NCBI GenBank assembly: GCA_013388755.1 | Contig: JACAEQ010000015.1 | Coordinates: 1 to 39,870, forward strand | DNA from: Chloroflexota bacterium | GTDB taxonomy: Bacteria > Chloroflexota > Chloroflexia > Chloroflexales > Roseiflexaceae | DNA length: 39,870 nucleotides | Reading direction: 5' to 3' | Notes under the pieces: generated by a model | What the model was told of the DNA's origin: nothing | Database searches by the model: none | The model's input: only the letters and a program-made list of their open reading frames with translations | Made by a program: the position numbers and the translations under genes | In this document: one piece after another, positions 18,566 to 25,696 of the stretch | Numbering within the stretch: position 1 is the first letter of the stretch | Layout: every line of letters begins with the position of its first letter

Positions 18566-19255
18566 ATGAAAAGCATCGAGATTAGCGCACGTACCGTATC
18601 CGAGGCTATCCGCCTTGCTCTGGCCCAGCTGGGCAAAGATCGCGACGAAGTGGCGATCGAGGTGCTCGAACAGGGCGGGAATGGCGATGAGGCGCTCGTG
18701 CGTGTGACGGTCGTCGACGACGATATTGATGAGACGCCGCCACGCGCGCCGTCGCCGGCAACAGGCTCGCTTGAACAGACGGCGCGCGGGATTCTCGAAG
18801 ACATCCTTGAGCGCATGGATATTGATGGCTATGTGACAGCTGTGCTCAGCACCGTTCCTGGCCCGCGCGGCGAACCGGAAGAGACCATTACGCTCCATAT
18901 CGAAGGGGCGGACGAAGAAGCCATGAGCCTGCTGATCGGGCGTCGTGGCGAGACATTGCGGTCGTTGCAGTTTATGGTCAACTTGATAGTGAGCCGCCAT
19001 GTGCAAAAATGGCCGCAGGTGGTGGTTGACGTTGGCAACTATCGCCAGCGCCGCCAGGAATCACTGGAAGGGCTGGCGCGCCGCATGGCCGAGCGTGTGC
19101 GCCAGAGCGGCCGCCCACTGATGCTTGAACCCATGGGCGCCTACGAGCGGCGAATCGTGCATCTTGCCCTGCGCTCCGATCCGACGGTCTATACCGAGAG
19201 CAGCGGCGAGGGCGAGAACCGAAAGGTCGTCATCTATCCGGCAAAACAATCGTGA
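18566..19255 (+). CDS. jag: Jag/KhpB RNA-binding protein (Jag_N-KH-R3H)
   Basis: A 229-aa cytosolic RNA-binding protein normally encoded after yidC. It has a Jag N-terminal domain (MKSIEISARTVSEAIRLALA), an Ala/Pro linker, a KH domain with a GRRGETL version of the GxxG loop (about residues 110-160), and a C-terminal R3H domain (LEPMGAYERRIVHLALR). Relatives (KhpB/EloR) bind many RNAs and affect cell elongation. The start at 18566 has GAGG upstream. Confidence 0.93.
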   Translation: MKSIEISARTVSEAIRLALAQLGKDRDEVAIEVLEQGGNGDEALVRVTVVDDDIDETPPRAPSPATGSLEQTARGILEDILERMDIDGYVTAVLSTVPGPRGEPEETITLHIEGADEEAMSLLIGRRGETLRSLQFMVNLIVSRHVQKWPQVVVDVGNYRQRRQESLEGLARRMAERVRQSGRPLMLEPMGAYERRIVHLALRSDPTVYTESSGEGENRKVVIYPAKQS

Positions 19256-23160: not shown

Positions 23161-23979
23161 TCAGCGTGCAACAAGCGCCGTATTGATCGAGTCGCGCAGG
23201 CGCTGCGCGGCACGGCGCGCCGCCGCGGCAAAATGGGGCCCATCATCGGCGTAGAGAACGGCACGCGATGCATTGACAATTGTCAGTGGCTCGCCAGTTG
23301 CCGCGGCGGCGCGCACGGTCAGGGCCGGATCGCCGCCCTGCGCCCCTACCCCTGGAATCAGCAGGAGCATGCTCGGGCAGGCGCGCCGCACGGCGATTAA
23401 CGCGTCCGGTTGTGTGGCGCCTACGACCAGCCCGACATTGCCATGGACGTTCCAGACGTCACGCGCATAGTCGGCGACGGCCATGTATAGGGGACGCCCA
23501 TCGGCCAGCGGTATATCCTGTAGATCGGCGCTGCCAGGATTTGATGTCTTGCAGAGAATAAAGCAGCCACGGTCGGCATAACGCAGAAATGGATCCAGTG
23601 CATCCCCGCCAAGATACGGATTGAGCGTGACGGCATCGGCGCCGAGGTGGTCAAACACGGCACGCGCATACGCTTCGGCGGTCGAACCAATGTCACCCCG
23701 TTTTGCATCGAGGATCACGGGTGGCCCGGGGCGCAACTTGATGAGTCGATCGAGTGCATTCATACCAGCGGCGCCCAGTGCTTCAAAGAATGCGATATTC
23801 GGTTTGAACGCGCATACGAGATCCGCGGTCGCTTCGATGATGGCGGCACAAAATGCGAAGACGCCGTCAGCATCTGCACGCATGTGGGGCGGCAGACGGC
23901 CAGGTTCAGGATCGAGCCCGACACACAGCCAGCTCTGATTCTGCCGGGCAACAGCGAGCACTGCTTCGCGAAACGTCAT
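23161..23979 (-). CDS. pyrF: Orotidine 5'-phosphate decarboxylase
   Basis: A 272-aa enzyme of the longer OMP decarboxylase subtype, making UMP from OMP at the end of pyrimidine synthesis. SWLCVGLDPEPGRLP starts the barrel; the catalytic cluster is VILDAKRGDIGSTAEAYA with D91, K93 and D96; later PYLGGDALDPFL, VGATQPDAL and LLLIPGVGAQGGD match the phosphate-binding part. ATG 23979 has a GAGAGGGA a few bases upstream. A TATAAT on the minus strand at 24104-24099 could be its promoter. No other pyr gene is nearby. Confidence 0.95.
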   Translation of the reverse strand: MTFREAVLAVARQNQSWLCVGLDPEPGRLPPHMRADADGVFAFCAAIIEATADLVCAFKPNIAFFEALGAAGMNALDRLIKLRPGPPVILDAKRGDIGSTAEAYARAVFDHLGADAVTLNPYLGGDALDPFLRYADRGCFILCKTSNPGSADLQDIPLADGRPLYMAVADYARDVWNVHGNVGLVVGATQPDALIAVRRACPSMLLLIPGVGAQGGDPALTVRAAAATGEPLTIVNASRAVLYADDGPHFAAAARRAAQRLRDSINTALVAR

Positions 23980-24192: not shown

Positions 24193-24291
24193 TATTCCAC
24201 AGCCACGTGTGGAAAACATGCGTTCTCAGGCGCTGGCACGCGGTGGCCCATGTGGATAAGTGGAAAACCTGTTTATAACATCAGTGGACAA
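24193..24291. other. Cluster of DnaA-box-like 9-mers (possible origin or DnaA-regulated region)
   Basis: Within 99 bases there are five sites of the TGTGGANAA type: TATTCCACA (reverse, 24193), TGTGGAAAA (24208), TGTGGATAA (24251, the perfect consensus TTATCCACA), AGTGGAAAA (24259) and AGTGGACAA (24283). They are followed by an AT-rich stretch from about 24297 to 24343. It lies in a 535-base gene-free region between divergent pyrF and sigma genes and 5 kb from rpmH-jag. dnaA itself is not in view. The remaining part, 23980-24192, shows no gene. Confidence 0.5.
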
Positions 24292-24296
24292 AGGGG

Positions 24297-24326
24297 TTGA
24301 CTTTAACGACTTACTAATGTTATAGT
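24297..24326 (+). promoter_or_regulatory. Promoter of the sigma factor gene
   Basis: TTGACT at 24297-24302, 18 bases, TATAGT at 24321-24326. Start would be near 24333, leaving a leader of about 180 bases. The -35 lies 6 bases past the last DnaA-box-like site, so bound DnaA could affect this promoter. Confidence 0.65.
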
Positions 24327-24343
24327 AGCGTGAGAAATAAAAG

Positions 24344-24410
24344 GGACGCCACGTTAGCGTCCTGGCCAGACAACGCACCCCGGGGCTTGGAGTCTTCTGC
24401 TCTTAGCCCC
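24344..24410 (+). promoter_or_regulatory. Two hairpins in the sigma factor leader
   Basis: Hairpin 1: GGACGC/GCGTCC (24344-24362, 7-base loop). Hairpin 2: GGGGCT (24382) with AGCCCC ending 24410, inside it a GAG/CTC pairing. A pyrimidine-rich CTCTTGTTGCC follows hairpin 2. They may be an attenuator, a thermometer-like or a protein-bound leader. I know of no family that matches. Confidence 0.4.
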
Positions 24411-24514: not shown

Positions 24515-25696
24515 ATGGCCACCGAGATCGTGGAGCGAACACAACAGGAATGGGCGCGGACGCTCGAGCATTTACTTGATGTCGCGCGAACCCACGGGTT
24601 CCTGACGTATAGCGAAATACTCGACGCGTTGCCACAACCGGAGCATCATGTTGCTGATGTGGACCAGTTGTACGCGCTGTTGCAGGCCGAGGGCATTCGC
24701 GTCGTTGAGAGCCCGGCGGAGGCGGCTGAGAATGGGCAGAACGCCGAAGATGATCTTCTGGCCGAATTGCCGGATCTGGCCGATGTGGCGCTCGATGATC
24801 CAGTGCGCATGTACTTGCAGGAGATCGGGCAGGTGCCGTTGCTCTCGGCTGAACAGGAAGTGATACTGGCCAAAGCAATGGAGGCCGGGCACCGGGCACG
24901 TTGTGCCCTCGAGCGCGAGGAGTATGGCTCCTGGCACGAACGTATGCTGTATGAGCAACAGGTGGCAAGTGGCAGTGAAGCTCGCCAGCACCTGATCCAG
25001 GCCAATCTGCGGCTGGTCGTCTCGATCGCCAAGAAGTACACATCGTATGGCCTCACGATGATGGATCTGGTGCAGGAGGGGAACATTGGCCTCATGCGTG
25101 CCGTTGAGAAGTTCGACTATACGAAAGGTCATAAATTCTCAACCTACGCAACCTGGTGGATCCGCCAGGCGATTACCCGGGCGATTGCCGACCAGAGCCG
25201 GACGATTCGCCTGCCGGTTCATATGGGTGAGGCTATCAGCCAGGTGAAGCGTACATCCCACAAACTGCAACAGACGATGCAGCGTGAACCGACGCCAGAA
25301 GAGATTGCCGACGCAATGGGGATCAGTTCGACCAAGGTGCGGCGTACACTTGAGGCATCAATGCATCCCCTCTCACTGGAAATGCCGGTAGGTCAGGAAG
25401 GTGAAGGGCGCATGGGTGACTTCATCGAGGATGATCGAGTCTCGACGCCGGCTGAAGCTGCTGCTGCCTCCATGTTGCGCGAACAACTGGAAGAAGTATT
25501 GCAGAAGCTCCCCGAACGTGAGCGCAAGATTATCCAGTTGCGCTATGGCCTGAAGGATGGCCGTTATCGCACACTTGAGGAAGTAGGGGTGGAGTTCGGC
25601 ATCACGCGTGAGCGGATTCGCCAGATTGAGGCGGTCGCGTTACGTAAGTTGCGCCATCCCCATCTGGGTAAGAAGTTGCGCGGCTACCTCGACTGA
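24515..25696 (+). CDS. sigA: RNA polymerase primary sigma factor (sigma-70)
   Basis: A 393-aa primary-type sigma factor. It has a region 1.1-like N-terminus ([13 protein letters not shown]... [17 protein letters not shown]), region 1.2 [18 protein letters not shown] near 94, region 2 ([39 protein letters not shown]), region 3 ([20 protein letters not shown]) and region 4 ([20 protein letters not shown]). All DNA-contact regions are complete. AAGAAGG lies 7 bases before ATG 24515. A clear terminator follows. Whether it is the only group-1 sigma of the cell cannot be judged here; it could be a group-2 paralogue. Confidence 0.92.

Follow-up and report, generated by a model that had tools for sequence, protein, structure and literature searches.

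The window, a 39,870-nucleotide stretch of Roseiflexaceae DNA, carries three head-to-tail DnaA-box-like 9-mers immediately upstream of the near-consensus sigma-70 promoter of an RpoD-like sigma factor gene, and this arrangement recurs in the same register in 14 genomes. Judging from sequence comparison, we think it likely that the cluster is a transcription-control region through which DnaA would modulate the sigma gene by way of the three promoter-proximal boxes. A limited number of genes are known to be under transcriptional control by DnaA. Here, we describe the array and its conservation, weigh the locus against a separate candidate for the replication origin (oriC), and then consider a LexA-like palindrome and an RNA leader that accompany the promoter. 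Coordinates are given in Table 1.

Table 1. Features at the sigma gene locus and positions of the box triplet in four genomes. Array offsets are relative to the first -35 hexamer base.
Feature	Position	Strand	Sequence or evidence
pyrF, divergent gene	23161..23979	-	TIGR02127
Weak 9-mer	24193..24201	+	TATTCCACA, 2 mismatches to TTATCCACA; relatives without counterpart
9-mer overlapping left arm of palindrome	24208..24216	-	TGTGGAAAA, 1 mismatch to DnaA consensus; not kept as DnaA box
LexA-operator-like palindrome	24213..24226		AAAACATGCGTTCT; pattern ARAAC-N4-GTTCT
DnaA box 1	24251..24259	-	TGTGGATAA on +, TTATCCACA on -; perfect consensus; start at -46
DnaA-box-like 9-mer 2	24259..24267	-	AGTGGAAAA, 2 mismatches; offset -38; one-base overlap with box 1
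DnaA-box-like 9-mer 3	24283..24291	-	AGTGGACAA, 2 mismatches; offset -14; ends 5 bp 5' of -35 hexamer
Sigma-70 promoter	24297..24326	+	TTGACT - 18 bp - TATAGT, near-consensus
5' leader hairpin 1	24343..24363	+	GGGACGC...GCGTCCT; 100% of cells paired, two pairs changed on both sides
5' leader hairpin 2	24382..24410	+	GGGGCT...AGCCCC, then conserved TCTTGTTGCC
RpoD-like sigma-70 factor, 393 aa (group 1/2)	24515..25696	+	TIGR02393, 358.2 bits, cut-off 354
Triplet, own genome	C33:920-969 (L003 920-969)		Beside DUF151 gene
Triplet, G008	C1:135640-135689		
Triplet, G032	C1:1967010		
Triplet, G031	C1:2627651		

DnaA boxes at the sigma gene promoter

An earlier note on this DNA described five DnaA-box-like 9-mers within 99 bases, one of them a perfect consensus (24251), in a 535-base gene-free region between divergent genes; all five are present, and the gap is as described, running from pyrF (minus strand, start 23979) to the sigma gene (start 24515). 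The note had proposed conservation of the 9-mers as a check, which three of them pass: those at 24251, 24259, and 24283 are kept in relatives and form a head-to-tail array, in one orientation and in register with the sigma-70 promoter. Those at 24193 and 24208 are not kept as DnaA boxes, and the former is probably a chance match. The AT-rich segment that had been pointed out beside the boxes is also real, but it is the sigma-70 promoter rather than an origin element.

Could the cluster as a whole be a coincidence, favoured by the length of the intergenic region? In favour of this, the 9-mers at 24193 and 24208 lack a conserved DnaA-box counterpart, but the cluster exceeds both shuffled and real-sequence backgrounds, and its conservation in fixed register is a further argument against coincidence. 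Four TTNTCCAC cores fall within 100 bp at the sigma locus, while the window, shuffled 100 times (first-order), never gave more than two; in 1.67 Mb of relatives' DNA, at least three cores per 100 bp were found at only three places, all of them oriC-like triplets. A GTGGANAA-N0-3-GTGGANAA pair occurs once in the 5.08-Mb own genome, at the sigma locus. DnaA boxes thus adjoin this promoter above chance expectation; for the three promoter-proximal 9-mers coincidence is already contradicted, and for the cluster we regard it as very improbable. The own-genome DnaA bears the canonical C-terminal recognition motif GRDHTTVMYGCEKI, and the exact DnaA 9-mer is over-represented across that genome (28 occurrences vs 8 for the reversed pattern).

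The gene downstream has one close orthologue per genome in the order, at 75-91% identity over near full-length matches. It had been taken for the primary sigma gene. Its product does pass the RpoD C-terminal equivalog-domain model (358.2 vs 354 bits), but it is neither the only nor the best RpoD: the genome encodes five related sigma-70 genes, and a 541-aa protein on contig C85 scores 394.4 bits against the same model. Whether the window sigma is the primary sigma of the genome is thus uncertain, and we refer to it as RpoD-like.

Conservation of the array across two families

The array was found in 14 genomes representing eight genera and two families, with six genera in the family of the window (its own genus g1, plus g2, g4, g5, g6, and g7) and two in a second family (g21 and g22). 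All 14 have a copy at -14/-15 and all but one (13/14) a copy at -37/-38; position -45/-47 is usually occupied as well, with box 1 at this offset in g1, g2, g21, g22, and four of the six g7 genomes. Degenerate remnants are visible in g11 and g23. The divergent neighbour is pyrF in the own family; pyrF was not found near the sigma gene in the second family, yet the register of the array is the same, which argues that the array goes with the sigma promoter. Conservation of the boxes with the gene and in register to its promoter supports the suggestion in the earlier note of a putative DnaA-controlled sigma promoter.

The same fixed register bears on whether the boxes might be a DnaA reservoir or reactivation site, of the datA or DARS kind, whose proximity to a promoter is incidental. 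They do form a DnaA-box cluster outside the origin and, in a complete Roseiflexus-like genome, lie at a distance of about 100 kb from the oriC candidate described below. However, a titration site would have no need of a register to the -35 hexamer held within 1-2 bp across eight genera, and the array tracks the sigma gene rather than a fixed chromosome position. We consider this explanation improbable.

Somewhat less improbable, though still unlikely, is that the sites belong to a different transcription factor whose motif (TGTGGANAA direct repeats) resembles a DnaA box. Apart from box 1, most copies in the array depart from the strict consensus, with A, C, or G as first base and any base at the seventh position, and two of the copies are densely spaced (8-10 bp). 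A further point against the DnaA reading is that neither spacing (8-10 or 23-24 bp) is a clean multiple of the helical repeat. Against a different factor, g1, g2, g22, and one g7 genome have best copies identical to the DnaA consensus, and the GTGGANAA pair, restricted in the own genome to this locus, gives no hint of a regulon under another factor.

Modulation by DnaA, our preferred reading, would not extend to the whole order. Almost every orthologous sigma gene in the order retains a AGGGGTTGAC...TATAGT block on its 5' side, whether boxes accompany it or not. In g3, g8, and most Chloroflexaceae, including all Chloroflexus-type genomes tested, the core promoter persists but boxes are missing. 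Because so many relatives lack the boxes, DnaA input appears optional and its control not essential. At two g3 loci (L014 and L017), a conserved palindrome, TTGTGCG...CGCACAA, takes the place of the boxes just 5' of the sigma promoter.

The sigma locus as a possible origin of replication

The earlier note also raised the possibility that the region is oriC, with DnaA assembling on the cluster and melting the AT-rich flank. Several features are compatible with this: a perfect box with several near boxes and an AT-rich stretch, and the nearby rpmH-rnpA-yidC-jag block, which we identified by HMM (rnpA and jag) or by ORF reading (yidC and rpmH); it ends 4.9 kb away, at 19255. G008, a complete Roseiflexus-like genome, has dnaA at the start of the record and the sigma gene at 237 kb, inside a broad skew minimum; global skew is weak in this genome, and GC skew was too noisy to discriminate in the window itself and in the Roseiflexus-like genome alone.

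Other evidence argues against an origin here. The note had suggested locating dnaA, and in the own genome dnaA and a separate set of boxes are found on contig C7, not on the contig of the sigma gene; adjacency to dnaA, common though not universal for oriC, is thus lacking. The note had also suggested a GC-skew analysis. With skew sampled in 20-kb pieces, two complete Chloroflexus-type genomes (G031 and G032) place the origin at or near another conserved box triplet and not at the sigma locus, which does not lie at the skew switch in these genomes and fits poorly (G032, -0.003 vs 0.021 at the triplet; G031, 0.022 vs 0.042). In both genomes the orthologous locus has no boxes. Whereas an oriC box cluster should be kept universally, the orthologous locus is boxless in most of the order, and the AT-rich stretch is accounted for by the promoter. 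Given the location of dnaA, the skew misfit in Chloroflexus-type genomes, and the missing boxes in most of the order, we dropped the oriC interpretation, which we now consider extremely unlikely.

A conserved box triplet as candidate oriC

The other triplet consists of three TTWTCCACA boxes in one orientation, with starts at +0, +20, and +41. It occurs once per genome in 53 of the 158 genomes of the class, and a reversed-pattern control gave zero. In all 21 relatives' loci checked, it adjoins a DUF151 (bifunctional nuclease) gene. In G032 (5,258,541 bp), the best skew origin is at 1.96 Mb and the triplet at 1.967 Mb (fit 0.0210), while an origin at dnaA has the wrong sign (-0.0088 vs 0.0210). 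In G031, the triplet scores 0.0418 vs a best value of 0.0429 at 2.28 Mb, with mixed signs from 2.28 to 2.6 Mb, and dnaA scores -0.026. Local GC skew in G008 changes from -0.08 to +0.07 at the triplet. On this basis, the triplet is a better oriC candidate than the sigma gene cluster, and it is probably the oriC of Chloroflexales, located away from dnaA.

Judged by GC skew, dnaA (at the record start) seems to be close to the replication terminus in both G031 and G032. The comparison suggests that dnaA is not an origin marker in Chloroflexus-type genomes and offers a sharp oriC candidate instead; this side result may outweigh the sigma promoter finding itself.

A LexA-like palindrome and a conserved RNA leader

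Upstream of the array, the palindrome AAAACATGCGTTCT occurs at an equivalent site in seven genera, -83 to -87 (about -84) from the -35 hexamer. A strict GAAC-N4-GTTC scan of lexA promoters gave almost no matches; a looser scan and a weight matrix, the latter built from 12 lexA-promoter sites chosen by eye, did yield sites. Among 300-bp background stretches, the own palindrome ranks in the top 0.4%, and those of two relatives score above all 4000, so by this matrix of eye-picked sites the palindrome resembles the lexA operators of its own clade. Since the lexA sites were chosen by eye, we treat the matrix evidence as supportive, not conclusive. The palindrome lies 84 bp 5' of the -35 hexamer in the window and does not overlap the core promoter, unusually distant upstream for a classical repressor site.

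Downstream of the promoter, an alignment of the 5' leader contains two hairpins with the motifs GGGGTGCC...GCGTCCC and GGGGTTTGAG...CTCACCCC-ATCTTNTTGCC (24343-24410). Both are kept in the two families, with 92.8% of cells paired and both-side changes in 5 of 16 pairs; the 13 both-side-changed cells compare with 4.3 in shuffles and are well above slid controls. Taken by itself, the own leader shows no better folding than shuffled sequences, so the support comes from the alignment, and an Rfam search of the leader matched no family. The conserved segment may act as a regulatory leader, or it may be a small RNA transcribed from the sigma promoter.

Another motif, TTGACANNNCGTGTAWTATGT, recurs between the leader and the sigma gene, 3' of the leader at loci L171, L177, L178, and L181 and near the start codon at L012 and L016. 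It is a candidate for a second promoter or another operator.

Proposed control of the sigma gene

From sequence comparison we infer DnaA binding, LexA binding, the sign of regulation, and its physiological purpose, as follows. DnaA would bind the three head-to-tail boxes directly 5' of the -35 element, where it would be placed to contact RNA polymerase. Bound DnaA may then modulate transcription of the sigma gene, such that sigma supply would track the state of DnaA, and with it replication initiation. Activators and modulators commonly bind just 5' of the -35 hexamer, a position at which the core promoter stays unobstructed. Since the boxes are located 5' of the core promoter without overlapping it, we lean slightly toward activation. 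The core promoter is near-consensus and persists in boxless relatives, which suggests that the effect is probably one of tuning rather than an on/off switch. The LexA-like operator about 84 bp 5' of the -35 hexamer probably contributes a DNA-damage input.

More tentatively, and with somewhat less than even confidence, we propose that an RpoD-type sigma gene of Roseiflexaceae and related Chloroflexaceae answers jointly to DnaA and LexA at a single ancestral promoter, coupling global transcription capacity to the initiation of replication and to DNA damage, and that parts of the lineage have since lost the boxes. Through a phased, conserved DnaA array at an RpoD-like promoter, replication initiation would be tied directly to global transcription, and this in an early-branching phylum in which little work has been done on either process.

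Comparison with known systems

The genome paper of Chloroflexus aurantiacus, a member of the same order, places oriC at dnaA, drawn at the top of its map (PMC3150298). That published origin differs from the sampled skew in a Chloroflexus-type genome, which points to about 1.97 Mb and the conserved triplet. A literature search for a mapped Chloroflexales oriC returned nothing beyond the genome paper.

For the sigma promoter, the closest likeness is Escherichia coli rpoH, a heat-shock sigma gene repressed by DnaA (Wang and Kaguni 1989, as cited in PMC8203912), where, in the account given there, DnaA acts on transcription of a sigma gene via sites in the promoter region. In contrast to that repressed heat-shock sigma gene, the gene here is RpoD-like and has a fixed three-box array 5' of the -35 hexamer. 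Our literature search on DnaA and sigma factors returned rpoH as the sole precedent. The array also resembles dnaA autoregulation, in which a box cluster lies by the promoter of a replication or growth gene; here, the target is instead a sigma gene, and no origin function is attached. Finally, the E. coli rpsU-dnaG-rpoD operon has a LexA site, and a sigma-70 gene is thereby tied to both replication and SOS. In E. coli the tie is an operon shared with primase, whereas in the Roseiflexaceae window DnaA boxes and a LexA-like palindrome at a promoter would provide it.
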